From NCBI RefSeq assembly GCF_040954835.1, contig NW_027168352.1:581001-645000 (forward strand): a stretch of 64,000 nucleotides of DNA, written 5' to 3'. The notes under the pieces were generated by a model. That model made no database searches. It saw only the letters and a program-made list of their open reading frames with translations, and was not told the origin of the DNA. Shown here in pieces: positions 1 to 64,000 of the stretch. The stretch comes from Lepisosteus oculatus. Its lineage: Eukaryota; Chordata; Actinopteri; Semionotiformes; Lepisosteidae. Each line of letters opens with the position of its first letter. Within the stretch, counting starts at the first letter, position 1. The position numbers and the translations under genes were made by a program.

Positions 1-514
1 ACAGAGGCTGCAACAGAGCCTGTCAGCTGGTTTGGTGTTCGTGCCGGGAAACTCCAAATCCAAACACAGTGGATAAGTAAACCCCATGTTCTACATTGCG
101 TCTCGAGAATTCAATTGTACCTCAACACAAGTTGTTATCAATTTAATTCATGAGTAATGTATTTACTTCCGAGTTTAGAGTAACAGTGGGTAATAACACT
201 GATTAGCGATTTGGTAACCGAACGATATATATTGACATATATTCTCTGTTGTGTATCTCTTTGTGTTTGCATCTCTTCGAGATTATATACCTTGTATATT
301 GATAACCCTCACCGTAAGGTCTGCCGCTCGTATCCAGGCAGACTAGTATATGTTTGGTGCACAGTTATATTAATAAATGTATCCCGTGTATTGAACCCGT
401 GTGTGTGCGTTCTTAGTTGTTCTGACGATTGATTTTCTAAAAGCCCCAACGAACAACCTCGTGATTACTGCTACAATTAATAATTGTCTCAGTAAACCCA
501 TCAAAACCTCTACA
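1..514 (+). repeat. 5' LTR, 3' portion only (window starts inside it)
   Basis: Bases 1-514 match 10703-11216 with three substitutions (near 213, 387 and 401). The LTR ends ...CTACA at 514, the inverted complement of the TGTAG that opens the 3' LTR. An AATAAA is at 372-377, followed by a GT-rich stretch, which would place R/U5 here. The missing upstream part is about 865 bp, judged from the 3' LTR. Confidence 0.93.
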
Positions 515-519
515 TTTAA

Positions 520-537
520 TGGCGTCCCTGGGTGGGC
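520..537 (+). other. Primer-binding site complementary to tRNA-Asn 3' end
   Basis: Eighteen bases starting TGGCGTCCCTGG, five bases after the LTR end, are the exact complement of the 3' end of a standard tRNA-Asn(GUU) plus its CCA tail. A tRNA-Asn gene at 40036-40109 in this window ends GCCCACCCAGGGATG, one base different from the primer consensus. The neighbouring leader (538-789) has no open frame of note. Confidence 0.88.
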
Positions 538-789
538 GGAGTTAAGAATGAAATGAGAATCAATCGCACAGAATAACTGATATTGCTGTGAGTTCAAGTT
601 CAGCACAGCACCGCGGCTTCTATACGCGAATACCGGGTGTGCTGATAACTGCGCAAAGAAATCCCCCTGTTTTCTAGCGTTTAGTGTAACGTGTGCTGAT
701 TGGAAATCCATCTGCTCGGGTGTTTAAATTCCATACTGTATTTTGGTAAAAGAAAAAAAAAGTAATACTCTTAAAGTTTCTCTGACGTA
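538..789 (+). other. Proviral leader between PBS and gag
   Basis: This is a non-coding 250-base leader where packaging and splice-donor signals would be expected. I cannot name either one securely. Copies of its first part persist at 15195-15244 and, inverted, in the decayed copy near 36700-36915. Confidence 0.55.
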
Positions 790-3700
790 ATGACAATGGC
801 TGCTAAAATGTCTGAAGTGGAGTCGCTTATAAGTACTATTTCTAGCGACGACAATCCTGGTTACTGGAGCGGTATCGAAAAGTTGAACTTTGATGATATT
901 GAGAAGCTGCAAGTAGATTTAGTAGCTAAAGTAGCGAACCAGCTTAACACAGGAGGGTCCGTGAACGCAGTTCAGGTCCTATCGAGTTTCGCCTTAAATC
1001 TAGCTAAACAGCTGGAACTGTCTTTGTCCGAGCTGACAAAGTTTCAAAAGCTTCAGGGAAAGCTAGAAAGATATAAGGCGGAGCGAGTTGAGTTGTTGGA
1101 TATAATCAGAGAAAAGAGAGTGAAAAATGAGGAAAGTGAAGACAGACTCAGGGAAGTTTTAGGTAAATTAGATGACCTGTCTGCTAGAGGAACTGCGGCT
1201 GAGGTAGCTAGGAGAGACCTGGAAGCGAGCTTGAAAGAAAAAGAAAAAGAAATTGAGAGTTTAAATGAGCTCAGCCAGGAAAGGCAAAAGGAGTTAGATG
1301 CTGCCGTACTGGAAGCAAAACAGGCTAGATCCCACTTGCATGCCAGCCCACCTAGCAGCCCGGAGCGCTCACCCAGCGCGCCGGGAGGAGGTTTCTCCCG
1401 GCCAGGGTCTGTGGTCGGATCGGTATGGGGGAGATCGCCGAGTCCTGCGCGAGACGCAAGGGCGATGCAATTCAGGCAGAGACCCCCTGCTCCTGATCAC
1501 GGCCGTCCCCCTGCCCGCGGAGAAACCGTAAAAGTTAACCTCCACTCCCTGAGGCAGTTAGCCAAAGATGTAGAAAGGTTTGACCCATCAGTGTCAGGGA
1601 ACAATGTGGAAACCTACATCGATGAGCTGAGACATACTTTGCAGTTTATGCCCGGAGCGTCCGAACAGGAAAAGGCTTTGTTAGTAAGGAAAACTACTAG
1701 CCGAGCGGTCCACGAGTGGATGTCTAGACAAGGACCGGAGGTCTGTAATAGCTTTGAGGAGCTGTGTCAGGCAATGATCGGAGAATTTTCGGCTTTTATC
1801 GATCCCATAGCTGCCGTGGCCGCTGCGCACCATATTAAGCACGAAAAAGCTGAAGCCCCTCGCGACTATTATGAGAGGCTTAGGCGCACTTATTTTGCAG
1901 GGCGGAATGAAGAGGGTTGCGAAGAGAACGTGAATTTCAAAGGTTTATTCATTGCTAATCTGCATCCCTCAGTCAGGAAAATGATTGTGATGCACACAGA
2001 TGCAAAAGCGATGAAAATGGCTGACATTAGAAGGTTGGCTCAAAAAGCCTGGGGAGCTGAAGTCTCTGCTTCCTCAGAGCGAAAACCTGCTAAAACGGCC
2101 GTGTTCGCCACTAAAGCCAGCAGGGTTGACGACTCGCCTCAGCTCGAGGGAGCTGAGGTTCCTGAGCCCTATAAGCCCCGGCGCAAAATAGGCAGGCAAG
2201 ACCGCACTAAGCGTCAGAGCCGCCGTGAGCGCTACGGGGAAGGCAAGGGCTCAGGCAGAGCCTATCATAAGACTGGACGAAGGGAGTCGACTGCAGCCCG
2301 CCTGGCCCGGCTTGAACAAGCCCTGCTTGAGAGACCAGGACAGGGTAAACCTTCCGCACCGAATGCCGGAAGCGTGAATGAGCTTAGGGGGACCACGCCC
2401 CTTCTCACTGGAGGAGGCGGGGATCCACCCCAAACCCCTCCCTCAGTCTATCTGATTGGGTGGGAGGGTTCCTGCCTGAAAGAAGGCTGTGACTTTGAGT
2501 TGGGCGCTGACCCCGCCCCTGAAGTCAAAGGAAAGGCAGGCTTCCAACAATTCTTAGGGAATCTCAGTCAGAAAGGCAAAGCAAGGCGTATTTATATCAA
2601 GGTTTCTCTTGAAAGCGTCTTAGATAGAGAAGCACTGATTGACACTGGGGCTGAAATTAGTTTGATGTCAGCCGATCTACTCAGCGAGCTCAAACGAGTA
2701 GCGAAAGGAAAAGGCATCAGACTTAAGGTAGAACCGTGTAAGATAGATATTTCCAGCTATACCCAGGATCATGCCAGGATCACACACCGAGTGTGGGTGG
2801 CACTTAGGTTCGGGCCAATGAATGTGGTGCATCCTGTTTACATCTCTAGGTTTAAAACAGAGCCACTACTCATTGGCCAAGACCTGCTTGACAGGCTGGA
2901 GCCTCTGGTGGACTGCCAGCGTGGAAAATTGTGGGCTCAGGTCAAAAACCCTAAGCCTGTCGTACAGCAAAAAGGGGGGTTCAGTGGTTATGCTGTGACC
3001 ACACAGTGCCCACTGAACACTATAGCTGAGTTGGAGGTTCCACCTGGTTCCTCTGGACGAGAAATAAATGTCTCTTCTTGCTTTCCAAAACTACAGGGAA
3101 GTCCTGCCCAGGCCAGCACTCCCACGGTCTCCCAACTACAGGAGCAGTGCTCCGAGCAGCTGCTTGACCCGCCAGGTAAAGCACACCCCTTTTTCATCCC
3201 TGAAGAAGAGTGGATCTCCCTGTCCGGTAATGAATGGGAGTCCTTTCTGTGCGCCCTGGTACCTCAGGGGGACCAGGACTACCACCCCATGGTGGTGGGA
3301 GGGGTCCAGGTTGCAGAAGTGCAGGTTGATGATGTAATTCTCAGCCTCAGCTCTGAGAAGTCCATAATCAGTGAAGGTCTGTTCAAGGACCTGTCGCGAA
3401 GCCGTCAGGTGACCCTGGTGACGCAGTCACAGGTTCTGTGGTGGGCACCCCCACCTCATAGGTCCATTTGGAGCAAAGGAAGTTGTGTAGCTTCCATCTC
3501 CATCGGAAAAAGGAAGTTTGCTCACTACTTCCAGGTAGCACCTCAGCTGACCCATTCGGTCTGTATTGGTGCAGACCTCTTGGTTCGACTGGGCGCCCAG
3601 CTGGACACAGTAAACAGTGTGCTGTGGACACGGGTGAACCCAGATGCCCACTCTCTAAGCGGCGACCCCGAGAACATTCGGTCAGGTCAGACGATTCCTC

Positions 3701-6700
3701 AGGCCTGCCAGGTTGTAAATGAATCGGACCTGATCGTTCCTGCATCAACCGCAGGGTTTCCGGTACGCCTTGTCCTGAAGAAGGGACAGAGAATGGATGC
3801 TGAGATGGTTTTCTTCCAACCATCAGCTCAGTTTATCAGACTGAACCTAGCAGTCTGTGGTACCCCCAGACTGGAACGGAATGGCCGAGCCACCTGCCTG
3901 TTGGTGCAGAACATAGCAAAACAAGATGTCAAAATCCCTGCTCGCACTGACATGGGACTGGTAATTGACAATGGTTTCTATGATTTCGAACTGGCCATCC
4001 CAGTACTGGGGCAGCTCCCTAGTCCCTTGGCCAGGGAGGGGGGAAACGAGCAGGTGTACTACACCTACCCCCGGCGGATGATCGCAATTATGCCAATAGA
4101 GGGATTCTGCAACCAGGAGGTGTGCAGAGTGGACCTTAGCGATAAGGATGAGATGGTTGTGTACACAGTACACGCAGGTGTTCCGACGGACCACTCAGCT
4201 AAGAGTGCGACCCGGGATACCGCCATGCCGTCAAAAGCGGGGTTCCTAGAGCAGGTACAGGAACAGGTTGGTAAGGCAGATGCCCTGGAAACGGAAAGCC
4301 AGCGTCAGCAGCTGCGTCAGATCTTCCAGGATTTCCAGGAAGTGTTTGCACGGGATGCCTATGACTGCGGGGTGACGGATTTGCACACAGTGCGCATTCC
4401 CACAGCCCCTGGCGCCCGCCCAACCTATGTCAGGCAGTATCGCATTCCCCTCACGGCATACGAGTCCATAAAGCAGACGTTGGATGCTCTACTAGAGCGT
4501 CAGATCATAAGGGAGTGCAACTCCACTTATAACTCCCCACTGTGGCCGGTGCTGAAACCCAATGGTAAGTGGCGTCTGACCATTGACTACCGGCAGCTGA
4601 ATAAACAGGTTCCTTTGTCACGATGGCCAATGATCTACCTAGATCAGGAGTTAGCCAAGGTGACAACAGCGAAATATTTCACCACAGTGGATGTGGCCAA
4701 TGGGTTCTGGACCCTTAAGGTAGAACCGACAGACCAGTACAAACTGGCCTTTTCCTTCGGAAACAGGCAGTTCACCTGGAATCGATGCCCCTTTGGGTAT
4801 TCCAACTCCCCAGCGGAGTTCAACATATTTCTGCACAAAGCCATGAGTGATGCAGCCGCCAGGGGCAACCTGGTCTATGTGGACGATATTCTGATGCGGA
4901 GTCAGACCTGGGAAGAACACATGGCCGAGATCAGGCATGTGTTGACCCAGCTCTCCCGTGCAGGGGCCAAACTGTCCCTGGCTAAGGGACAGTGGTGTAG
5001 GACCCAAGTGGAGTACGTGGGACTGTTGGTTGGAGCCCAAGGCATACAGCCACAGTCCAGCAGAGTCCAAGCTATCCAGAATATGAAGTCGCCCACTAAC
5101 CTGTCTGAACTGCGCAGCTTTCTGGGAGTATGTAATTATTCCCGGCAGTTCATTGAGGATTACGCTGAAATAGCAAGGCCCCTCCACAAGCTGTTGCAGA
5201 AAGACGTGCCCTTTGAGTGGGGACCTTCCCCAGAACAGGCTGTGATGGAGCTGAAGCGCAAACTCGGTAGTGCGCCGTGCTTGGCCTACCCTGACAAAAA
5301 TAAGGTCTTCTACCTTGAAGCAGGGTTCTCAGAGCACTGCCTTGGGGCTGCTCTGAGTCAGGAATATGACCAAGAGCGAAGGGTGGTGGCGTATGCCAGT
5401 CGAGCCCTGACCCCAGTGGAGCAAAAGTTCTTGGACTGCGAGAAGGCCCTGTTGTCTACGGTCTGGTCGGTAGAACACTTCCGTAGTTATGTAGGGGGAC
5501 AAAAGATCATCATCGAAACCTGCCACCAACCTGTGACATTCCTGCATAGCCAGAGACTGAAAGCAGGCAGGGTGTCAAATAGCAGGATTGTGGCATGGAT
5601 GATGGCCCTACAAGGCTATGAGATAGAGGTACGTTATGCACAGAGCAAGAAAATGTACCTGGGACAGGGCCTGGCTTTGGGCCAAGTGTGTCACGGCTGT
5701 GACACTGACATGGAAGCTCCAGAAATGATTCCCGCTGCTGAGCTACCGAACAATCATCGGTACTACGATGAGAACGTGGGCCAGGGCTTACCCATGGCCT
5801 ATGTTGACGGTTGCTCTTTTCGCCACGAACAGCAGGTGCTAGCAGGGGTAGGTGTAGTCTGGCAAGACAATACTCCCTGTGGGCCGACCCGCTATAAGCT
5901 AGGACCAAAGACTAGTCAGTATGCGGAAGTAGCTGGGGTGCTGATCACACTCCAGCAGGCCCTGACAAATGGCCTTAAACAATTTGTCATCTGTAGTGAC
6001 TCGAACTACGCCCGACATAGCTTCGTGTCCCATCTTCCGTATTGGAAGGGTAACAGCATGAAAAATGCCCGGGGCAAGGAAGTAAAGAACAAAGAGTTGT
6101 TCCTGGCCAGTGACAAGCTCACGACCGAGGCTGGAATGATGGTTTACTGGAGGAAGGTGAAGGGACACTCCCAGGTGAAGGGACCCGACAAAGACGGGAA
6201 TGATGAGGCCGACTGGCTGGCCAAATCTGGCGCCTTAGAGGGTGATCCCTGGCAGTTCCAGCAGGAATGGCTACCCCCAGAAACCGTGGCTGAGGTCAAG
6301 GCAGTCACCCGAAGCAGGGCTAGACAGGATGTCGGAGCCGACCCTCAATCTGTAGTGCTTGGGTCACAGGGTTTTAACACCGATCTTGCGGAAATGCAGA
6401 AACAGGACCCAGCAATTGGGCAAATGTATCAGCATATCGCTGACCCAGTGCGTCAACCTCTTTCAGAGCAGGTGCTGAGCCAGTCTCCGGAGCTGAAGGA
6501 GCTGGCAGAGGTGAAAGACAACCTAAAAATTATAAAGGGGTTGTTGGTTTGTGTACCAGTTGCACAAGGTGTCCCAAAGTGGGTAGTTCCCCGCTGTCAT
6601 CGGGGGGTCATGATCCAACACGCTCATGACGAACCCTGTGGGGGTCACCGGGGAATCAAGGCCACGTACGACACTATCCAGCAGGTGGCATTCTGGCCTC

Positions 6701-7698
6701 ACATGGGCCGAGACATCGCCGCGTATGTAAAGGGGTGTCTGACGTGTAGCCAGTTCCAACCATCACGGCCCTTGCACCGTGCACCACTCCAGAAAAAGGG
6801 AATGACATTCCCCTGGTCCAATCTACAAATGGATTGGGTGGGGCCGCTGGTGAGGTCATCCAGAGGGAACAAATATTTCCTCACTGTTACGTGTGCATTC
6901 ACAAAATGGATTGAGTGCCTCCCAGCACCCAACGACACGGCAGAGACAACTGCAGTGCTGTTGGTGAACCATGTGTTCAGTCGATGGGGACTCCCCCTGA
7001 CCGTGGACTCGGATCGGGGAACCCATTTCACAGCTACAGTAATGGCAACCCTGTGGAATATGCTTGGGGTCAAGGCCCAGTTGCATATCTCCTACCACCC
7101 TCAATCCTCGGGCCAGGCAGAAAGGGCAAACCGAACGGTGGTTAGTATGCTCAAAAAGTTTGTCTCCACCAACAGTAGGGACTGGGACATTAAGCTGCCC
7201 CTGGTTCTGATGGCCATCCGAGCCACTCCCCATTGCTCTACGGGGGTCCCACCTTTTGAGATGATGACAGGTCGGAAGATGACTCTTCCCCTACACTGTC
7301 TCTATGGGGTGGAGGACCTGAGCACGACGGGGGCTGCTACGGCCCATCAGTATGTGTCAGACCTGCGAGCACATCTGCAGGCAACCTTTGCTTTTGCCCA
7401 GAACAATCTGGGAAGGAGTGCAGAGGGTAGGAAAGCATACTATGACCGGAAGGCAGTTAACCAGGAACTCCAAGTAGGAGACAAGGTCCTGTACTTCCAA
7501 TTTGCCAAACCCACAGGGGTGGCCCGGAAGTTCTTACCCAGTTGGACAGGACCCCACGAGATTGTCGATAAGGTATCACCGGTAGCTTATCGAATTCGGA
7601 TTGAAAAGGGAAGGCAATCTCTGGTCTACAAGTGGGTGCATCGCAACCACCTCCGATTGTATCGCCCATCTCAAATGGCGCCGGAGGACACAGAATAG
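790..7698 (+). CDS. gag-pol: Gag-Pol polyprotein, single fused frame
   Basis: 2302 codons with no stop or frameshift. In-frame ATGs occur at 790, 796 and 808. Gag part: coiled-coil-like charged helix at about residues 75-165, Ser/Pro linker, capsid-like helical domain at about 260-425, then a basic Arg/Lys/Gly tract at about 463-500. No CCHC zinc knuckle is seen. Protease DTGAE has its Asp at 618. A second protease-shaped domain at about 835-965 lacks the DTG. Next is a beta-rich spacer, then RT with YVDD at 1363-1366. A first RNase H-like region has Glu1510 where the first catalytic Asp is expected. A second, complete-looking RNase H has D1673, E1713, D1737 and D1808. Integrase follows, with H1946/H1953/C1983/C1986 and D2015-D2075-E2111 (35 residues between the last two), and a C-terminal GPY/F-like module (WTGPH). 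The enzymes would process the polyprotein, copy the RNA and integrate the DNA. Because gag and pol share one frame, the usual excess of Gag must arise some other way, which is not visible here. Confidence 0.93.
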
Positions 7699-7839
7699 GG
7701 TTAAAAGTCTAAACCCAATCAAAGAGGGGGGTGCCCCTTTGTAGTTGCAGGTAGTTAGGTACTGTAGTGTAGGTCCTGCTAGGAAAATATATTCAAAAAT
7801 ATAGTGGAACTGTACCATGTGCCTCATCTGTGTTCCAGA
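7699..7839 (+). other. gag-pol/env spacer with probable env splice acceptor
   Basis: The 141-base gap has no usable frame. A pyrimidine-containing run followed by TTCCAG ends at 7839, immediately before the first in-frame env ATG at 7840. This is what a 3' splice site for a subgenomic env message would look like. The acceptor is inferred from position and consensus only. Confidence 0.4.
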
Positions 7840-9609
7840 ATGGGAATCCTAAAACTGCCACGGCTGGTCCTGACAGTACTGTGGATCGCCTCGACACAGC
7901 CCCTTGAAGTTGTGGAACCCGGTCCTCCTACCGGCATAGTCCTGCAGGACGCTCCCGGATTGTTGTTAACAAATTGCAGAACATATACTCAGCGAGTGTA
8001 TGTACGGCTGGACCCACATGATGTGTTTCGGAAGCACATCAACATGAACAGTAGGGTGTCCTATCATGGTAGGCAGTGGGCTGGGGATACTGTATGGCAT
8101 GCCCAGCTAGACACTATACACATGCTCCGCCAGCTGAGGAAGGCAACAGTCACCCAGGAGGAGATGACGGGCCTCAACCGCCCCAAAAGGTTCTTGGGGG
8201 GTCTGATTGCTGCGGCCTCCGCCGTGGGTTCGCTGTTTTCAGCTGGTCTGTTTGCTGCTAACACTGTCACCCTGACCACCCTGAGAAGGCAGGTGTCTGG
8301 GTTACGTAAGGAAATGCCAGAAATTTATGACAAGCTGTATCAGCAGCAGCAGCGGCTGGAAAGCCTAGGGAAAACCTTACAGGGCACAATTTTAGCAGTA
8401 AACCTTCATGCAGCACTGTTAAATAACACCCTCCACACCGTGGGCAGGATTGTCGACGTGTTACAGTGGGACTATGCTTATGTGCAACAGGTCAGAATGC
8501 TGATGCAGGATCTGCTTAGGGAGCTTAGTGCCACAGTAACTAGCCTAGCCATGGGACAGATTCCAACCTACTTGGTTCCACTGTCCTTAGTAGAAGAAGT
8601 ACTGAAGACAACCACTTCCGAGATGGTGCAGCCATTGCAAGTACATCTTGCATACAGTCTAGGCAGTGCCATTCCCATACATGTCAACCCCGAAGCCAAG
8701 GAAATAGGTTTCCTGTTGAACCTTCCCATCGTGAGTAGCAAGGATATCTATAGACTCAAGTCTATATTGAACGTTGGCTTCTGGAGGGGGGACATGCATG
8801 TGAAGTTGACCACCCCACCGCTCGTAGCTTACCAGGAGGATGATCCGAATTTGTACCTTGTTCCAAACCTGGAACTGTGTATATCAACCAAGGATATCCA
8901 CTGGGTATGCCCAAGTAAGCCATTCCTTAGGGACACAACTCAGAGGTTGTGTGGTATCAGAAAGGGGGCTGCCACTGAAAAGTGTAAAGCCACAGTGACG
9001 AGCAAACGTGAGGTTAACGAACCCCAGGTTGAGCAGGTGGGAAAGAAATGGCTGGTCAGCACACCACAATTAACGGTTACAATAACCTATGACAGACATG
9101 ATACAGCTACCGAAGTGCAGCTACCCAACCAAACAGTTTTTCTACAAGTTCCTGAAGGAGCTATAGTGCATCTCAACGATTTAGCACTGTATCACCTGGA
9201 GTCAGAACCGTATGAAACGGAACTCGAGATTGTGGACGCTTTCAGAGGACACAGCGTTGACTTGGATGAGAGAATCCAAGAGACAGTAAGTCTTGAGGGT
9301 GTACAGGTAGTCGAATTTGTTCTCAACGACACAAACTTAAAAACTACACTGGTAGGTCCCAAGCACAGTCGGTGTGGATCCTCTGGGGCGCTAGGGACAG
9401 TAAACGTGGTCATCTTGACACTGCTGCTGGGTAGCTGGATCATGGCTGGGGTAATGTGTTGGATGCTGTTCTCTTGTATCAAAGCCTTGCTGGGTAGTTT
9501 GAATGAGACAAAGGGAGCAATGGTTTATCACCGAAATCAGGTAACCACGCCCAAGCGTCTGCCTGCTGCAGAGCTATCCGATACTGATAGTGAACTGCCG
9601 GAAGTTTAA
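7840..9609 (+). CDS. env: Envelope glycoprotein, class I fusion-protein-like
   Basis: 589 codons from the first ATG (the frame extends 12 codons upstream without an ATG). A hydrophobic signal peptide covers about residues 3-20. A short N-terminal subunit ends at a furin-type site RPKR (114-117). It is followed at once by a glycine/alanine-rich hydrophobic stretch typical of a fusion peptide (from 118) and a long heptad-rich helix at about 140-215. The large C-terminal subunit carries several Asn-X-Thr sites, a transmembrane segment at about 521-545 and a tail of about 44 residues. A short first subunit with a long second one is the layout of paramyxovirus/baculovirus/errantivirus F proteins. 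Ordinary retroviral Env has a large surface subunit and a small transmembrane subunit. Vertebrate lokiretroviruses are reported to carry such an Env. The role is receptor-triggered membrane fusion, and the frame looks intact. Confidence 0.85.
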   Translation: MGILKLPRLVLTVLWIASTQPLEVVEPGPPTGIVLQDAPGLLLTNCRTYTQRVYVRLDPHDVFRKHINMNSRVSYHGRQWAGDTVWHAQLDTIHMLRQLRKATVTQEEMTGLNRPKRFLGGLIAAASAVGSLFSAGLFAANTVTLTTLRRQVSGLRKEMPEIYDKLYQQQQRLESLGKTLQGTILAVNLHAALLNNTLHTVGRIVDVLQWDYAYVQQVRMLMQDLLRELSATVTSLAMGQIPTYLVPLSLVEEVLKTTTSEMVQPLQVHLAYSLGSAIPIHVNPEAKEIGFLLNLPIVSSKDIYRLKSILNVGFWRGDMHVKLTTPPLVAYQEDDPNLYLVPNLELCISTKDIHWVCPSKPFLRDTTQRLCGIRKGAATEKCKATVTSKREVNEPQVEQVGKKWLVSTPQLTVTITYDRHDTATEVQLPNQTVFLQVPEGAIVHLNDLALYHLESEPYETELEIVDAFRGHSVDLDERIQETVSLEGVQVVEFVLNDTNLKTTLVGPKHSRCGSSGALGTVNVVILTLLLGSWIMAGVMCWMLFSCIKALLGSLNETKGAMVYHRNQVTTPKRLPAAELSDTDSELPEV

Positions 9610-9823
9610 GGTCTAGGGCTAATGATGACGCCCGATGCCTCATTTCTATGTACCTTATAACTGAGAGCAGGTATACGCAATGTTCTTTCCAACACTATTT
9701 CCTGTACAAATTCTCGAGAGGTAATGTGAATATTGGGTGGTAGAATCCACCGGGGTACAACAGACATCACTTAACTCTGTTTTTGTTTTGAAGGCAACAA
9801 CGCCTCAGGACCTCGTGACCTTC
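9610..9823 (+). other. Post-env untranslated region
   Basis: About 210 bases between the env stop and the polypurine tract. A small open frame starts at 9737 and runs into the LTR. I see no recognisable domain in it and do not call it a gene. Confidence 0.5.
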
Positions 9824-9837
9824 AAAAAGGGGGGATA
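9824..9837 (+). other. Polypurine tract
   Basis: A run of A5 then G6 followed by ATA directly abuts the TGTAG start of the 3' LTR. This is the expected plus-strand primer. The position next to the LTR edge supports the LTR boundary. Confidence 0.8.
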
Positions 9838-11216
9838 TGTAGCGGCAATGCTTGTTAATAAGACAGAATTAAGCGTTGGTATGCTCCTAAAAGAGGCCCC
9901 ATCTCACCCTCCATCTCTGTGGTGCAGCCACAGAGAAAGAATTCATGCAAGCTGATTTAAGATGTTTTCTTGTGATAAGAAACCAGCTCCCAAAGGGGGA
10001 TGCACTTAGCTAAGCCTGGCTATCATGATCAATGGTCATGCATTGGCGCCTATCAGTCTAGGGAGTGCCGAATGGACATCTGGACTGCATTCCTAAGTGT
10101 CAAGAGTAAGTGACTTATATCTCACCTTGACCAACCAATCAGGGACTGGCAGGGCGTAGTAATACCACGTGGGTCTCCAATGCCCGCCAAACTCTCAACC
10201 AATCAGCACACATCTGGGTCTTGATCAAAAAGGGAGCGCAAGCTCAGTTCTGGGCTCTCCTTGGCCATTTTCGCGCATCCTCAGAGACAATCACGTGACA
10301 ACTGCTGTTGTCTGCAAAAGGACTTGGACTTTGTTCAAAGCGCGAGGCCGAAGATCCCGTACGTACTCAGAATTCTACCAACATGAATGCTCCGCTTGAT
10401 CAACGGCAGCCTACAGTTGGACCCTCGTCGACAACCTGAATAGCTTATTCAGAAGCAGCGCTGGACCGGGAACGAACCAGTTTCTTCCCAGGCAAAAGAG
10501 TGACTTGTGAGGACTCGCGGTCACACTCTGTGCATAGAGACTTTCTACTAGCCAGCCGGACTGCTGGTAGATCCCCTCGGAGCAACGACTGCCCTGCGCG
10601 CCGCAGTTAGATTCCTCCGCCCGTCCTACTCCGAGCTGCACCTCGACTGGTTGGCCGGTAGCCAGAGGACGCCGTCACAACGCCCATTGGACAACCGCTG
10701 CAACAGAGGCTGCAACAGAGCCTGTCAGCTGGTTTGGTGTTCGTGCCGGGAAACTCCAAATCCAAACACAGTGGATAAGTAAACCCCATGTTCTACATTG
10801 CGTCTCGAGAATTCAATTGTACCTCAACACAAGTTGTTATCAATTTAATTCATGAGTAATGTATTTACTTCCGAGTTTAGAGTAACAGTGGGTAATAACA
10901 CTGATTAGCGATTTCGTAACCGAACGATATATATTGACATATATTCTCTGTTGTGTATCTCTTTGTGTTTGCATCTCTTCGAGATTATATACCTTGTATA
11001 TTGATAACCCTCACCGTAAGGTCTGCCGCTCGTATCCAGGCAGACTAGTATATGTTTGGTGCACAGTTATATTAATAAATGTATCCCGTTTATTGAACCC
11101 GTGTGTGTGCGTTGTTAGTTGTTCTGACGATTGATTTTCTAAAAGCCCCAACGAACAACCTCGTGATTACTGCTACAATTAATAATTGTCTCAGTAAACC
11201 CATCAAAACCTCTACA
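9838..11216 (+). repeat. 3' LTR, complete (1379 bp)
   Basis: It begins TGTAG and ends CTACA (5-bp inverted ends with TG/CA). AATAAA lies at 11074-11079 with a GT-rich stretch after it. A TATATA is at about 10928-10933, and a CACGTG E-box at about 10164. From these I infer U3 to about 10955, R to about 11100, then U5. TATA use and cap site are inference. Confidence 0.9.
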
Positions 11217-11269
11217 CAACCAAGAAATGGATTTCATCTTTCACAAGCTGTATGGATTTTGAAATGTAT
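11217..11269 (-). repeat. Right flank of provirus: scrap of tRNA-region repeat
   Basis: Read on the minus strand, these 53 bases match 39897-39948 (beside the tRNA-Asn gene) and not the LINE. The LINE stump was therefore already joined to this repeat when the provirus inserted. The target duplication should begin CAAC, but its partner lies outside the window. Confidence 0.65.
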
Positions 11270-11906
11270 GGACGATGCCAGGTGTCCCACAACACCACAG
11301 CGCCGACACACCTTTGGTTGTCCCACATAAAAAACATAGCCATTGCAGGCGCCCAGCCGGATTGTAGAGGGCAGGTGCCTTAAGCCTCCATTTACATTGT
11401 CCGGTAGCAAGCGAACCTCGAATTTCCTTGCTCCTGTTTTTATACCGTCAACATCTCTAACCTCAGTTCCATGGTGGACGGTGCAGTACTGCTTAAGCCA
11501 GGTGTGAATGTCCTCCGTCTTTGCCAGTTCCGAGAACATAACAACATGCACCGTTTTCCTCTCTCTCTGTGTCAGAGGCTGCAAGTTGATCTTCTCAAGG
11601 GCAGGAACTTTCCCTCTTTTTGCCTCAAACACATCCACACATTGTTCAAACAGAGAATAGGTAGCAAAAACAACCTCAAATGCTTTCTGACCTGGGAGAG
11701 TGAAGATGAAATCCAAGTGCCGAGGTTCAAAGCCACGTTCCTTCTGTAACACTTTTCTGCTGAACTGCATACGATCCATGAAGAGGTCATCCAAAAGCTC
11801 AAAACGTACAGCATTCTTGCGGGATCCAAAGGTTGCCATCTCAAACTGCAAAACAAACACTGCTTCCACAAAACAAGAAAACAATCCAACTACTCTAACT
11901 ACAGGC
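11270..11906 (-). pseudogene. 5' stump of Tx1-like LINE, ORF1 truncated
   Basis: On the minus strand this matches the 5' end of the LINE at 58259 onward. The ORF1 start codon is at 11839 and reads down to the first CCHC knuckle (CRRCG...GHLASS). It then breaks into unrelated sequence at 11269, giving a frame that stops near 11234. Relative to the complete copy it has scattered amino acid changes and a few extra bases just before the ATG leader. No RT remains here. Confidence 0.85.
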
Positions 11907-11935
11907 TGATCAAGGTATCTCCCCTGCCAGGTAAG
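11907..11935 (-). other. U1 snRNA 5' fragment (nt 4-32)
   Basis: The 29 bases match U1 from CTTACCTGG to TTGATCA and directly precede the LINE 5' end. On the other side they join U5 upstream sequence at a shared CTT. The same fusion is found at 58230-58258. Confidence 0.85.
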
Positions 11936-57977: not shown

Positions 57978-58094
57978 GCCCCACCCGAAGGCAGGGAAGC
58001 ACAAAAATTGTATGGAACTCATTCATGCTCCTCTCCATGGAAATCTTTAGTAAAAGACAAAAGATTTGTACGACATGAAGAGAAACCAGAGTGC
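57978..58094 (-). ncRNA. U5: U5 snRNA gene
   Basis: On the minus strand: loop 1, Sm site AATTTTTG and the terminal TTCG hairpin all intact, with 3' box at 57954-57965. It is the mirror of 12071-12187. Its upstream region runs into the U1 fragment and LINE. Confidence 0.88.
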
Positions 58095-58229
58095 GTGGCT
58101 GGACAGCTGCAGGAGCCCAGGCCGCCCTCAAGTCCTCTGCCCTGCCAGTCGTGGTTGGCAATGCACCTGGCCTTACAAACGAGCCAGTGGGGCCCATTCG
58201 GCTCCGGGCTCATCGCCTGCGGCTCTCAG
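58095..58229 (-). promoter_or_regulatory. U5 upstream region
   Basis: Same conserved block as at 11936-12070, divergent from the LINE that follows. Confidence 0.55.
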
Positions 58230-58258
58230 CTTACCTGGCAGGGGAGATACCTTGATCA
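58230..58258 (+). pseudogene. U1 snRNA 5' part (nt 4-32)
   Basis: The 29 bases CTTACCTGGC...CTTGATCA match the U1 5' end, including the 5' splice-site pairing segment ACTTACCTG (minus the first three bases). The LINE begins at the next base. Confidence 0.9.
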
Positions 58259-58319
58259 GCCTGGAGTAGTTGGATTGTTTTCTTGTTTTGTGGAAGCAGT
58301 GTTTGTTTTGCAGTTTGAG

Positions 58320-59747
58320 ATGGCAACCTTTGGATCCCGCAAGAATGCTGTAAGTTTTGAGCTTTTGGATGACCTCTTCATGGATCGTATGCAGTTCAGC
58401 AGAAAAGTGTTACAGAAGGAACTTGGCTTTGAACCTCGGCACTTGGATTTCATCTTCGCTCTCCCAGGTCAGAAAGCATTTGAGGGTGTTTTTGCTACCT
58501 ATTCTCTGTTTGAACAATGTGTGGATGTGTTTGAGGCAAAAAGAGGGAAAGTTCCTGCTCTTGAGAAGATCAACTTGCAGCCTCTGACACAGAGAGAGAG
58601 GAAAACGGTGCATGTTGTTATGTTCTCGGAAATGGCAAAGACGGAGGACATTCACACCTGGCTTAAGCAGTACTGCACCGTCCACCATAGAACTGAGGTT
58701 AGAGATGTTGACGGTATAAAAACAGGAGCAAGGAAATTCGAGGGTCGCTTGCTACCGGACAATGTAAATGGAGGCTTAAGGCACCTGCCCTCTACAATCC
58801 GGCTGGGCGCCTGCAATGGCTATGTTTTTTATGTGGGACAACCAAAGGTGTGTCGGCGCTGTGGTGCTGTGGGACACCTGGCATCGTCCTGCACTGTGAA
58901 ATGCTGCAAGACCTGTGGCAAACAGGGACATTTAGCCTCTGACTGTTCAATGCTGCCAAAGTGCAATTTATGTGGCTCGGAAGGACACATTTTTAAGAAC
59001 TGCCCTCACGCCTACGCCAATAAACTCAAAATGAGAAAGGATGAGGCAGTGCTTGTTTCAGCCAAACCGGCCCGAAAAGCCAAAGCAAACAACAAGTCAA
59101 ACAAAGAACCCTTGTTGGACAAAGAGTCTTAGCCTCCAGCCAGGATCAGTCCTGCTGTGGCTCCGGGGCCGGTGGAAGAGAAATCCACTACGCTCCCACA
59201 ACCGCAGACTGCACCAGACAAGCACGAGGGTTTGAAAACCCCAGAGAACAGCGAGGACCCCTCCCCCACTCCTGCTCCTCAGAACGAGGGCCAGTGTGGG
59301 GCCCCCCGGTGGAGCGGGTCCAGCGACGATACCCAGGATTCAGCGGAGCTGCTTTTCTTAGACTCTGCAAGTGCTACAGATGCCCTCCTCTCCTCCATCC
59401 AGTCCATCACGGAGGATCTGCAGCAGCTGGTGGGTGAGGGGGAAGAGGAGACTGGTGCATCGGCTGCACCCCTTTCCCCTCAGTGCTCCCAGGAGCTGGA
59501 CTTGAGGAAAAGGAAAAATGACTCTGTTTTCTCCCCGAGCGAGGAGGAAGGAGAGCATGGCGATGGGGACAGCTGGAACCCCTCCACCCCTCCCTCTACC
59601 CCCTTCCTTGAAATGGACTCCGTGAATGCTTTTACTGCTGCCACCCTGATGAAGGCTCATTCAGAGGATGGCTGGCAGGAAATTGGTAAGAAGAAAAAGA
59701 AAAAGAAGAAGGTAACAGGTGAGACAGAAGAGAAATGTGTTTTGTAA
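58320..59747 (+). pseudogene. ORF1: LINE ORF1 (Gag-like RNA-binding protein) with one in-frame stop
   Basis: Start ATG 58320 (MATFGS). A TAG at 59130-59132 splits an otherwise open 475-codon frame. Before the stop are an N-terminal globular domain and three zinc knuckles (CRRCGAVGHLASSC, CKTCGKQGHLASDC, CNLCGSEGHIFKNC). After it come a Pro/Ser/Glu-rich part and a lysine run (KKKKKKK) near the end. ORF1 proteins bind their own RNA for retrotransposition. The stop would remove the tail but leave the knuckles. The open frame upstream of 58320 reads through antisense U5 and is not coding. Confidence 0.85.
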
Positions 59748-62700
59748 AGACTGGTTCCACTTTCTTATGTAATATGGCTCTAAACATAATTTCTCTTAAC
59801 ACCAGAGGTATCAATGACAGAGTTAAATGCCAGTCTGTCTTTGATTACCTCCAGCAGAGAGAGGGAGATGTGTTGATGTTGCAGGAGTGTGCTTTAGCAT
59901 ATCAAGAGAGGTATAAAAGCTTTGAAGATAGGTGGGATAAAGGGCCTTCTGTTTGGTCAGGGGACAATAACAACAGAGCCTCTGGCGTGGCCATTCTTTT
60001 CAAAGGATGGGCTTTCAAATTGAAAAGTATTCAGAGGGTCATAGATGGCAGGTTGCTGTGTGTGGATGTGGAATGGGGGACCGTTAACCTGCGGCTAATC
60101 AATGTGTATTGTCCTACTGACGTGGGAGGAAGGGTGGAGCTACTCAAGGCACTCTCTCCCCTATTGTTATGTAGCACAGACGTGATAGTGGGAGGGGATT
60201 TTAATTGTATCTTAGAGCACACAGACAGGCAGTCTAGCTCTCCGATAAAATTGGATTCCAGCTCACTGGCCCTGCAAAACTTAGTTCAAGACTTTAAACT
60301 CTCAGACACATATAGATGTATATATCCCACAACAGCAGGATATACATGGTCAGGGAGGAATAGCAGCTCCAGAATTGACTATTGCTTTGTCTCAGAGAGA
60401 GTGAAAGTTGTTGGGGTCACTCTTCAGCCTGTCTTCTTCTCAGATCATCAGGCTTTAGGGTGTAGAGTGGAACTCCAGGGCGGGACTGTCTTTGGAACAG
60501 GCCTCTGGAAACTCAACACAAAGCTGCTAGAGAATGAGGGGGTAGTATCCCGCTACAAGGAGAAACTATCACAGTGGTTGTCCTTGCAGTGTCTGTACGG
60601 GTCAGTAGGAGAGTGGTGGGAGGAGGTGAAGGTGAGGACTAAGGCCTTTTTCATGGCTGAGGGAAGGAAGGCTGCTGCCAGACGGAGAGGAGTGCTAGCC
60701 AGGAAACAGAGGCAGCTGCAGCGTCTCTACACGATGCTGCACAGTGGCTTCGATGTGCTCGAGGATATCACCCTTTTAAAAAGGGACATCCGGAGCATAG
60801 CCGAAGAAAGTAGTCGAGGAGTGCTGTTAAGAAGCAGAGTGCAGTTCTTGGAAGAAAATGAGAAGTGTACTCGCCTCTTTTTCAGGAAAGTGGTAGGCTC
60901 CAAGTCTGTCATGGAAAGTGTAGTTGATGAGGAGGGACGAGAGAGAACAGGGCCGAGTGCTATCCTCTCCTGCACCGAGGCCTTCTACTCAAGACTGTAC
61001 AGCTCTACAGAGGTAAAGGATGAAGAAATTCATTTTTTTACCTCAAAGCTAGAAAACGTTTTGAGTGAAGAAGATAGGGAAGTACTTGAGAGGGATTTGA
61101 CAGTAGAAGAGCTGAGACAGGCTATGGAGAGCTTACAGCAGGGGAAAACTCCGGGTGCTGACGGGCTCCCTAAAGAATTTTATTGCACCTTTTGGGATCT
61201 GCTTCAGGATCCGCTACTGCTCCTATTCGAGGAAAGCTATAAGACAGAATTGCTGCCTGACTCCTTAAGAGAAGGCACTATCTCTCTCTTGTTTAAGAAA
61301 GGAGCAAAGAATGACATAAAGAACTGGAGACCCCTCAGCCTGTTAGGCGTGGACACTAAGATCCTGTCCAAAGCCCTTTTCCTGCGCCTACAAAATGTAG
61401 TGGCCTCACTGGTAGGGAAAGAACAGACTTGTGGGATAGCAGGACGCCTGATGAGCGACAACCTGGCCTTGTTGAGGGATGTCTGTCTGTACTCAGAGGA
61501 TCGCTCCCTCCCTCTGTGCATTTTAGGTGTAGACCTAGAAAAGGCCTTTGACCGCCTAAACCGGCAGTACTTAACATCGGTACTTGAGCACATGAAGTTT
61601 GGCCCCATCATGAGAAAGTGGATTAACCTGCTGTACACAGGTAGCAACAGCAGAGTCATGGTTAATGGCAATAGATCACGCCCCTTTGAAGTCTGTTCAG
61701 GGGTGAGGCAGGGCTGCCCATTATCCCCCTTGTTATTCGTTTTGGCTATGGAGCCCTTAGCCTGTGCCTTGCGCCAGGATCAGGCCATTAATGGGATACC
61801 AGTGCCTGGAAGTGGGGGAGGAGAGGTAAAGACATCTCTATACATGGATGACGTCACCCTGCTCCTCTCTGACAATGCCTCAATTAGCAGAGCTCTGCAG
61901 TGCTGTGATCAGTTCTACTTGGCTTCCTCTGCAAAAATTAACAAATCTAAGAGTGAGATTTTTTATCAGAACTGGAGGGAGCCAAAAGAAGGACATGATC
62001 TCAGGCTGCAAGAGAAGAGAATTAAGGTCCTGGGGGTGTATTTTGGAGAAGAGATGGGAACAGTAAATTGGCAGAACAAATTGCCAATCTTAAACAAAAA
62101 ACTGATGCAATGGAAGGACCGAGACCTCACCATGACAGGGAAGCTGCTGGTCATCAAAGCCGAGCTCTTGCCTGTCTTGATTTTTCTGGCTTCTACCTTC
62201 CCAATCCCACACCGTGTTGCGGCGGTGCTGAGGAGATTGATGTTTCAATTTCTATGGGGTGGGAAGCAGGAAAGACTCAGAAGGGAAATAATGTACAGGC
62301 CGCTACCCTCAGGGGGGAAGTCTGTCCCAGATATTGCTACGAAGCTGCTGTGCATTTTCCTGGCCTCTGTGCTGAGAGGCTTTGCAACAGCACCTGCAGC
62401 GCGTACCTGGACTTATTTTTCCAGGCTCTGGGTAGGTAGGGAGGTGTTCAGAGTGTGGGGTGTCAGACCCAAGCTGGATGTCCCACTCTCTGACACATGC
62501 CCTGCAATTTATGGGACAGTTAAAAGTTTTCTAAGATCTCACCCAATTGGCCATATTCCCCTCCGAGATGTCAGCGTCCAAAAACTGGAAGATTTCGTTG
62601 CACCCCAGAATAATAGGCAGACGCCTGTGGGCATTTTAACATCAGCCCAAACAAGGAAGGTGTGGAAACACACATCCTCTAAGTTTCTGTGCAACATTCA

Positions 62701-63193
62701 CAGAGATTTAGCCTGGAGTGTCGTCCACCAGTGCTTACCGGTACGAACTTTCTTGTACCGTAGGGGCCTCACCCCCAGCCCTCGCTGCGTTAGGGTGGAC
62801 TGCGGCGAGGAGGAGACTGTGACCCATCTCCTGTGGTCCTGTTTTTTTGCTAAGGCCTTCTGGGCACAGTTTGAAGATTGGTTGCAGGCTCTCTCGCCCC
62901 AATTTACCCTGACCGCTGCTTTCGTCATATACGGCATCTCTCCTGTCAAACTTCCTCCTGACGTGTTTGACAGGATCTGGGCCGTGGTGAACAGTGGGAA
63001 AGACGCCCTGTGGAGACTGAGGAACATGGGGCTGTTCAAAGGCATCGAGGTCCCAGTCAAGGCAGCAGGTAGCCTGGCCCTGTTCATCACCCGAGAGAAC
63101 TATTACCTCAGAGATCTGTGGAGAGAAGGGAGGGAGGAAGCAGAAAATCTGTGGGAAATAGAGAGCATAGGTCAATATCTCAAGAGACTGTGA
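59735..63193 (+). CDS. ORF2: LINE ORF2: APE endonuclease + reverse transcriptase
   Basis: 1152 codons, fully open. It overlaps the end of ORF1 by 13 bases. A second ATG at residue 14 (MALNII) aligns better with endonuclease starts. Endonuclease motifs: SLNTRG, LQEC with Glu51, GGDFN, and SDH at 236-238. RT motifs: TPGADGL, WRPLSLL, GVDLEKAFDR with Asp600, GVRQGCPLSP and YMDD at 703-706. Near the C terminus, Cys/His spacing (CVRVDCGEEETVTHLLWSC) fits the zinc-binding region common to such ORF2s. The endonuclease would nick the target and the RT would copy the element RNA at the nick. Confidence 0.94.
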   Translation: MCFVKTGSTFLCNMALNIISLNTRGINDRVKCQSVFDYLQQREGDVLMLQECALAYQERYKSFEDRWDKGPSVWSGDNNNRASGVAILFKGWAFKLKSIQRVIDGRLLCVDVEWGTVNLRLINVYCPTDVGGRVELLKALSPLLLCSTDVIVGGDFNCILEHTDRQSSSPIKLDSSSLALQNLVQDFKLSDTYRCIYPTTAGYTWSGRNSSSRIDYCFVSERVKVVGVTLQPVFFSDHQALGCRVELQGGTVFGTGLWKLNTKLLENEGVVSRYKEKLSQWLSLQCLYGSVGEWWEEVKVRTKAFFMAEGRKAAARRRGVLARKQRQLQRLYTMLHSGFDVLEDITLLKRDIRSIAEESSRGVLLRSRVQFLEENEKCTRLFFRKVVGSKSVMESVVDEEGRERTGPSAILSCTEAFYSRLYSSTEVKDEEIHFFTSKLENVLSEEDREVLERDLTVEELRQAMESLQQGKTPGADGLPKEFYCTFWDLLQDPLLLLFEESYKTELLPDSLREGTISLLFKKGAKNDIKNWRPLSLLGVDTKILSKALFLRLQNVVASLVGKEQTCGIAGRLMSDNLALLRDVCLYSEDRSLPLCILGVDLEKAFDRLNRQYLTSVLEHMKFGPIMRKWINLLYTGSNSRVMVNGNRSRPFEVCSGVRQGCPLSPLLFVLAMEPLACALRQDQAINGIPVPGSGGGEVKTSLYMDDVTLLLSDNASISRALQCCDQFYLASSAKINKSKSEIFYQNWREPKEGHDLRLQEKRIKVLGVYFGEEMGTVNWQNKLPILNKKLMQWKDRDLTMTGKLLVIKAELLPVLIFLASTFPIPHRVAAVLRRLMFQFLWGGKQERLRREIMYRPLPSGGKSVPDIATKLLCIFLASVLRGFATAPAARTWTYFSRLWVGREVFRVWGVRPKLDVPLSDTCPAIYGTVKSFLRSHPIGHIPLRDVSVQKLEDFVAPQNNRQTPVGILTSAQTRKVWKHTSSKFLCNIHRDLAWSVVHQCLPVRTFLYRRGLTPSPRCVRVDCGEEETVTHLLWSCFFAKAFWAQFEDWLQALSPQFTLTAAFVIYGISPVKLPPDVFDRIWAVVNSGKDALWRLRNMGLFKGIEVPVKAAGSLALFITRENYYLRDLWREGREEAENLWEIESIGQYLKRL

Positions 63194-63405
63194 AAAACAT
63201 TATCATGTTTAAGTAAAGAATGTGATTTGCACCAGAAAAAAAGAAATTGTTACTATGTAACTGTTGCCGTGTCAAAATGTAATGAGATGTGATCATATAT
63301 ACTGTTTTAAGTATGTATATTAATGTAAAGCTTTCTGATTTGTGATGTCCTGTATTTTATTGTGAAAAGAAAATAAAGTTCTTAAAAATCGAAAAATCGA
63401 AATCA
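63194..63405 (+). other. LINE 3' UTR and tail
   Basis: About 210 AT-rich bases ending in AATAAAG and two to three copies of an AAAATCGA-like unit directly against U1 sequence. Short repeated tails are typical of Tx1-type elements. Confidence 0.75.
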
Positions 63406-63515
63406 GTTCACCCAGGGCGAGGCTCGGCCATTGCACTCCGGCTGTGCTGACCCCTGCGAATTCCCCAAATGTGGGAATCTCGACTGCATAATTTCTGGTA
63501 GTGGGGGACTGCGTT
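63406..63515 (+). pseudogene. U1 snRNA 3' part (nt 41-150), stem-loop IV missing
   Basis: 110 bases from GTTCACCCAGGGCGAGG to GGGGGACTGCGTT follow U1 collinearly (stem-loops II and III, and the Sm region ATAATTTCTGG). The last 14 nt (stem-loop IV) and any 3' box are replaced by other sequence. With the 5' half this is a split, dead U1 copy. Confidence 0.9.
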
Positions 63516-64000
63516 AGGACACCACGAGCTGCGTGGCTGCGGAAGGATCCCGGTTCGACAGGAGTGGACGCCGCTGCTGGTTCTCGCTGGCTTTTAGTTA
63601 GGGGTCCGGAGAAGCATCTCAAGCTAGTTCCACTACTCCTTCCGGACGTTCATTCCCTTTTCAAAGTCAGTCGTTTTGCTGTAGTCTGCGTTCTTTAGGC
63701 TGATTATCGAGGTTAGCCTTTATTTGGTCATGGGGGGCCTCGGTACTGTATGCTGAGTCTAAAGACAGTTTCACCCGTTTTCTGATTGCTCGGTTCTGTC
63801 CCAGTGCAGACATGTCAAACAGTGAATGGCTGTACCTCTATTGTATCCGTGCTCAATGAATGAAATCGGTAACAAATGAATATATGTCTAGTTATACGAA
63901 AAACGAGTGGTTTATCGACTCATCTTCATTTGCAGATTTAGAGGCAGCTTCGATATTCGTTTAACAGACTGTTTTTTTTTTTTTAATATGGGTCACACAC
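63516..64000. other. No gene seen
   Basis: No RNA motif or coding frame is recognised after the U1 fragment. Confidence 0.45.

Follow-up and report, generated by a model that had tools for sequence, protein, structure and literature searches.

A young Tx1-like LINE with the U1 snRNA gene as its main target in Lepisosteus oculatus

We found a young Tx1-like long interspersed nuclear element (LINE) that has the U1 small nuclear RNA (snRNA) gene as its main target in the genome of Lepisosteus oculatus. Splicing requires U1 RNA. The copy from which the analysis started lies inside a U1 gene within a stretch of 64,000 nucleotides (nt), hereafter the window (assembly GCF_040954835.1, contig NW_027168352.1, positions 581,001 to 645,000 of the forward strand). 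Hundreds of genome copies share both its 5' junction, in which TTGATCA of U1 meets GCCTG of the LINE, and its uniform 3' junction. We put the probability at roughly 0.85 that the element is a LINE with an apurinic/apyrimidinic endonuclease (APE) which mainly targets U1, whose RNA is made from the U1 promoter and whose U1-derived 5' head anneals to the target during integration.

Results

Copies of the element meet U1 at one position

We searched the host assembly (G000; 1,200,105,466 bases in 813 contigs; loci and contigs are cited below by our L and C handles) for the occupied form of the gene, CAGGGGAGATACCTTGATCA directly followed by GCCTGTAG, which occurs 538 times exactly and is evenly split between the strands (262 and 276). 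The uninterrupted form, CAGGGGAGATACCTTGATCA continued by AGAAGGAGG, occurs 482 times, and reversed-pattern controls gave 0 matches. Double-head copies (see below) with a long enough head enter both counts, U5-joined and off-target copies enter the 538, and variant U1 genes and the 5' form of the window enter neither. On the other side of the element, 344 of the 457 exact occurrences of the LINE 3' tail AATAAAGTTCTTAAAAAT are joined to TTCACCCAGG within 2-32 bases, again with 0 matches for a reversed-pattern control. When the tail served as query and the best 40 of 781 candidates were scored, 39 of these 40 ran into U1 at nt 40/41; in locus L033 of this set, U1 is lost and the sequence continues in the spacer of the U1 unit. 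Two of the 39, L042 and L043, hold a shortened U1 piece, fused within U1 to 5S sequence.

Copies selected by the second open reading frame (ORF2) gave the same picture. Flanks were fetched for 34 of them, and the 3' end lies within U1 in 30; the remaining four comprise one truncated tail, one LINE-LINE tandem, the off-target copy and a U1 start with a rearrangement beyond nt 52. A U1 head is present at the 5' end of 32 of the 34, including two full-length double heads and two with a shortened second head, and the readable 5' ends stand under U1 promoters, apart from the off-target copy. The element thus occupies one position of one gene family in many copies. A sequence-only reading of the window had proposed U1 as the target and had suggested searching for many copies joined at nt 40/41 and for empty U1 loci. 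This proposal holds: the 538 5' joints, the 344 of 457 tails and the 39 of the best 40 tail matches support it, and 482 uninterrupted U1 5' halves exist beside them.

As side observations, 5S-like sequence in reverse orientation follows the U1 units at L140, L033 and L042 (recognised by eye, not by Rfam), and the 5' end of the U1 LINE in L103, L104 and L153 (C86, C43) directly abuts a different LINE that ends in poly(A).

Tails and flanks point to separate insertions

The fetched loci show 20 tail forms at their U1 joints, and in 100 of the 344 joints the tail and the U1 letters next to it form at least 24 distinct strings. The U1 upstream flank of the copy at C14:31.1M is 82.5% identical to that at C315:1.82M and 82.3% to that at C530:0.92M, while the 3' part of its LINE reaches 97.9% and 97.5%, respectively. 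Across nine occupied loci, the 134-180 bp upstream of U1 are 79.8-96.7% alike in 33 of 36 pairs and 98.1-100% in three (nine of ten rows were used; the off-target row was dropped as a free-end-gap artefact). LINEs that are more alike than their flanks would not stem from one insertion copied together with its surroundings, unless gene conversion favoured the LINE.

The element carries a U1 head

Nine copies have a double head, in which the target U1 is kept to nt 41 or beyond and is then followed by a second U1 head plus LINE (Table 1). Eight were found by pattern search and the ninth (L222, + strand) by position. The second head begins at several U1 positions, and in no copy seen does it start upstream of +1. 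Where the 3' side of a double-head copy was seen, about 1-13 nt of U1 are present on both sides of the insert; the 3' stretch fetched for C1:5580743 showed an empty U1, and for C1:6568k the only knowledge of the 3' side comes from a tail that lies as far away as expected. Outside U1, one insertion (C326:1114528, C326:1464201 and C627:287237) likewise starts exactly at U1 nt 1 and is flanked by a 12-bp duplication, AATCGCGTCTCC. Six full heads have a non-T base at -2: the three off-target copies, two of the double heads and a U1 gene whose promoter has diverged. In no double-head or off-target copy has U1 promoter sequence moved with the element.

These joints show that the mobile unit consists of U1 nt 1-32 plus the LINE. 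The eight U1 bases absent from the window were part of the sequence-only reading; the absence of nt 33-40 stands, and the double-head and off-target copies show that it is not best understood as a deletion made at each insertion. The joint between U1(1-32) and the LINE is carried by the element itself, and the gap is a property of the element. Since no head seen passes +1 and the off-target copy begins at +1, the RNA of the element most likely starts at the U1 start site.

A minority of copies lie outside U1

The sequence-only reading had named copies of the same 3' end in unrelated sequence as an argument against U1 targeting. Such copies exist as a minority: of the 457 exact tails, 113 do not belong to the exact U1 set. 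We examined 20 of these, the first 16 by contig order (C1-C5) and four in C14. The four C14 tails lie within U1 genes bearing a base change and the other 16 lie elsewhere; with these 16 of 20 and one triplicated U1-headed copy outside U1, strict target specificity was not found.

Three of the 16 non-U1 tails (L237, L248 and the diverged L241), together with the C326 event, occupy one common site in a dispersed repeat, close to AATCGCGTCTCC, and this repeat, struck by four LINE insertions (L237, L241, L248, L226), is a possible second target. The C326 site reads GGTTAATCGC and U1 reads GGTTCACCC; GGTT, common to both, may be part of the endonuclease recognition, to judge from these few sites. 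L238 has GGTGATGCGCGG on both sides of its insertion.

Separately, L238, L243, L244 and L247 are short dispersed copies whose starts all fall in a stretch of 20 bases (LINE 4858-4877) and whose flanks are unrelated. A purine run could possibly act as a stop for reverse transcription at these starts. A short interspersed nuclear element behind the dispersed tails was considered for the four similar starts and rejected in favour of 5' truncation, given the unrelated flanks.

Coding capacity and classification

The intact ORF2 that the sequence-only reading had noted was confirmed as an open frame of 1152 amino acids (aa). It contains the Pfam domains Exo_endo_phos, RVT_1 and zf-RVT and matches L1 ORF2p and the LTX endonuclease chain 2v0r. 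When the genome was searched with this protein, all 40 copies scored (of 6852 candidates) were open, had no stop and were at least 98% identical; the element is a young Tx1-like LINE. ORF1 has Pfam matches to zf-CCHC and ZCCHC3-type domains, and CCHC zinc knuckles in ORF1 are a feature of Tx1-clade LINEs. The window copy of ORF1 is stopped early, at codon 271. Including upstream codons, the open frame comprises 396 aa in the window copy and two sisters, and 412 to 603 aa in the other copies listed, save one of 1640 aa; in this last copy (G000:C401:481546) the ORF1 match lies within the long frame, and ORF1 and ORF2 may be fused there.

In a midpoint-rooted tree of 57 rows, which did not include Keno, Mutsu, Dewa or an L1 outgroup, ORF2 groups with 21 unnamed proteins at 45-53% identity (branch support 99), and the sister group holds a Danio protein named transposon TX1 (41% identity over 76%). 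Membership of the Tx1 clade is likely. ORF2 relatives at about 50% identity are present in metagenome protein sets, and relatives with flanks were not found in IMG/VR viral genomes. Records of prokaryote genomes contained 11 distant matching loci, which were not used.

The window copy is damaged and rearranged

The window copy is a damaged, rearranged example of the element. Its placement between U1 nt 4-32 and nt 41-150 with eight bases absent, as the sequence-only reading had described it, was confirmed: both pieces are identical at every base to the reference U1, the commonest form in 30 U1 loci from this genome, and AGAAGGAG (U1 nt 33-40) is absent between them. In a scan of the + strand only, the next best window match to the 29-mer of the head has 10 mismatches, and the second occurrence of the 29-mer region belongs to the - strand copy of the window. 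With up to three mismatches allowed, the window holds a single match to a 25-mer of the U1 3' part (expected 0), and the Rfam U1 model scores the right U1 part at 63.3 bits, below its gathering score of 69.5. After GCCTG, the 5' form of the window is short of a few bases.

On its left, U1 is joined at nt 4 to part of a U5 promoter, with no U1 promoter ahead, and GCTT is common to both sequences at the joint. On the right, U1 nt 151-164 and the subsequent 3' box are deleted between two GTT motifs. Among the best 40 of 781 tail matches, the U1 3' end is complete in 26, shows the window-type deletion in 11 and another change in three. Two sisters (C732:553811 and C29:12212228) are 100% identical to the window copy over the 322-base query and in ORF2. 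With its damaged copy, which has a duplicated locus and identical sisters, the window alone is insufficient to settle targeting. The left U1 piece was also considered as a chance fragment, with the U5 promoter abutting it and the right piece ending at nt 150; other copies with U1 promoters and complete U1 3' ends ruled this out.

Table 1 Features of the window and double-head copies elsewhere in the genome
Feature	Position	Strand	Remarks
Second copy, 5' part only	11270..11935	-	About first 640 bp of LINE plus U1 head (11907-11935); inverted duplication
U5 snRNA gene adjoining the element	57978..58094	-	Rfam RF00020
Proximal part of U5 gene promoter, replacing U1 promoter	58095..58229	.	Common to U5 loci 16186, 16694 and 26011 without U1
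U1 nt 4-32, U1-derived head of the element	58230..58258	+	29/29 identical to host U1
Tx1-like LINE apart from U1 head	58259..63405	+	Junction type same in hundreds of copies
ORF1	58320..59132	+	270 codons, then TAG (59130-59132); frame open onward to 59747; ZCCHC3-like RNA-binding domains and CCHC knuckles
ORF2	59735..63193	+	1152 aa, intact; APE-type endonuclease, reverse transcriptase, zf-RVT
AATAAA polyadenylation-like signal	63372..63377	+	
3' tail	63384..63405	+	AAAAATCG-type repeats, variable between copies
U1 nt 41-150 of target gene	63406..63515	+	110/110 identical to host U1
Downstream spacer of U1 unit	63516..64000	+	By comparison with complete U1 units; U1 nt 151-164 and 3' box deleted at joint
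Second head from nt 1	C401:1882017, C445:830594, C369:1741362		
Second head from nt 3-4	C1:6568k		Some extra letters ahead
Second head from nt 4	C401:1631069		
Second head from nt 5-7	C1:5580743		
Second head from nt 13-14	C807:152506		
Second head from nt 26	C1:5661115, C1:5669622		Probably one event

The second LINE copy lies in an inverted duplication of 96.5% identity, and its LINE is cut off beside a long terminal repeat (LTR) element. This retroelement (window 1-11270) has a 2302-aa frame with reverse transcriptase, RNase H and integrase domains and a second frame of 601 aa without a Pfam match. Positions 1-514 and 10703-11216 are 99.4% alike and are probably its LTRs; the element adjoins the cut end of the LINE copy. 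Between 12000 and 58100 follows a dense array with 8 U4, 5 U5 and 21 transfer RNA (tRNA) matches; its duplications are both inverted and direct, and many of them exceed 90% identity. Telomere-like CCTAAC repeats lie near 26225 beside a U5 promoter.

Discussion

A proposed integration cycle

Our data suggest an integration cycle in which the host U1 promoter makes the RNA of the element from U1 +1, with the structure U1(1-32)-LINE-(AAATCG)n. The endonuclease would nick the bottom strand of U1 near nt 40/41, in stem-loop I, as the uniform 3' junctions indicate, and the new 3' end at the nick would prime DNA synthesis on this RNA. After such target-primed reverse transcription at nt 40/41, the end of the complementary DNA would be the complement of the U1 head, which could anneal to the matching target U1 and thereby create a seamless joint of U1(1-32) to the LINE under a U1 promoter, with the disappearance of nt 33-40. 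Where annealing fails, the head may instead be joined to the cut end by microhomology, often ACC, CAGGG or TT, which would leave a second U1 head and duplicate a short piece of the target. U5-joined copies, that of the window among them, could represent such a failure, in which a head beginning at nt 4 became linked via GCTT to a U5 promoter close by and the class was then multiplied. Uniform joints and double heads are a DNA footprint that fits a target-derived annealing head.

Alternative explanations and opposing observations

Could a single chance insertion into a U1 gene, multiplied by duplication of snRNA arrays and gene conversion, have produced this pattern with no preference for U1? 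The U1 arrays are large, and the window class, with its U5 promoter joined to U1 nt 4, does resemble one amplified event. However, tails, U1 forms and 5' joints differ between copies, target duplications vary in length, and the C14 locus has a U1 flank far more diverged than its LINE; double heads from several U1 positions, moreover, are not a product of duplication. We consider this explanation very improbable. Somewhat better, but still with only a small chance of being correct, is a model in which U1 is indeed targeted and the head is a by-product, restored by gene conversion from the target, with transcription driven by an internal promoter of the LINE. Copies under native U1 promoters would appear identical in both cases, but the off-target insertion with its 12-bp duplication has a head from nt 1 and no U1 in place to convert from, and no head in the copies seen reaches beyond +1. 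Mammalian L1 makes chimeras with small RNAs by template switching, and the U1 sequence on the 5' side of the LINE might recall such a chimeric LINE/U1 retrocopy; yet U1 resumes in register on both sides of the element, under U1 promoters in many copies, and the 3' junctions contradict this origin, the probability of which we regard as negligible.

Several observations weigh against our reading of a U1-targeting element with an annealing head. Since many copies are array duplications, 538 is not the number of events, and U5-joined copies are counted in it. Forty stretches were retrieved from where copies similar to the window copy should have their 5' ends. Six of them have a U1 promoter (L096, L097, L099, L105, L108 and L113), 16 are U5-joined, two are joined to another LINE and 16 show no LINE 5' end (two of these read N); the U5-joined class is thus common among the nearest copies of the window (16 of 24 readable 5' ends). 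Two of the 34 ORF2-selected copies have no recognisable 5' end in the stretch fetched. The loci C315 and C530 are 98.2% alike in their flanks and 99.1% in their LINEs, and this pair fails to separate the models. The 16 examined tails outside U1 carry LINE 3' sequence at 70-98% identity, and targeting is therefore strong but not absolute. All eight double heads found by pattern search are on the minus strand of their contigs, in spite of the even strand split of the joints as a whole. The off-target insertion whose head begins at nt 1 counts as a single event, present three times (twice in C326, once in C627). C401:1882k and C445:830k have their 5' joint in common but not their tail or U1 form, which makes gene conversion possible for this pair. 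Finally, both the start site and the use of the promoter have been deduced from DNA.

Comparison with known systems

Keno, Mutsu and Dewa belong to the Tx1 group of LINEs. The published descriptions of these zebrafish elements, as far as they are drawn on here, place Keno in U2 snRNA genes, Mutsu in 5S genes and Dewa in a tRNA-Leu spacer, and assign an APE-type endonuclease to Keno (PMC3706591, PMC4640811). By these described targets, rather than by sequences, our element resembles them as a LINE fixed on or beside multicopy small-RNA genes and differs in its target, U1 at nt 40/41. Utopia, another LINE fixed on an snRNA gene, is described with a restriction-like endonuclease and a U2 target (PMC4640811). 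Dada-U1 DNA transposons share the U1 gene of fish as target, but in the accounts cited they have a DDE transposase and no LINE proteins, and they use another site with the target duplication GCGAAT/GCGAAC (PMC3706591, PMC8869645). The DDE transposase, hallmark of Dada-U1, was not found in our insert, both ORFs of which show LINE-type domains only.

For R2, the account we cite describes 28S sequence retained at the 5' end of the RNA, proposes that its annealing to the target leads to uniform 5' joints, and interprets tandem 28S duplications as failures (Eickbush et al. 2013, PMC3774820). Both elements have uniform 5' joints and now and then a head duplicated in tandem, and a target-derived RNA head is probable for ours as well. 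In contrast, R2 RNA is cut from a ribosomal RNA co-transcript by a ribozyme like that of hepatitis delta virus (HDV), according to the same account, whereas the head of our element ends at the U1 start site. With Rfam families as models and E values of up to 1, no HDV-like self-cleaving ribozyme was detected in 58000-64000. The trypanosome LINEs SLACS and CZAR lie in spliced-leader genes and belong to the group with a restriction-like endonuclease. They, too, sit within a small-RNA gene close to its start and probably use its promoter, but they differ in endonuclease group, host and target.

A LINE in U1 was not found in the titles and abstract starts of the open literature searched; Repbase, which was outside this search, may hold such a family that no paper describes. 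U1 appears to be a new LINE target.

Implications

Tentatively, and with somewhat less than even odds, the element may be wholly dependent on the RNA polymerase II snRNA machinery of its host: Its messenger RNA would begin at U1 +1, driven by the U1 promoter, the U1 head, which contains the sequence that pairs with the 5' splice site, would serve as homology arm for integration, and downstream U1 3' signals would possibly end the transcript. In this scenario, U1 arrays and element would expand together, because exact joints (538, U5-joined ones included) outnumber uninterrupted U1 5' halves (482).

U1 is strongly conserved in animals, which makes the endonuclease of interest as a tool for site-specific insertion. 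Our results furthermore show that double heads and an off-target copy can reveal the likely RNA start site of a LINE from DNA alone, and they would extend the R2 model of head annealing to an APE-type LINE in which no ribozyme was detected. It also becomes testable how a genome copes with interruptions in such a large number of U1 genes.

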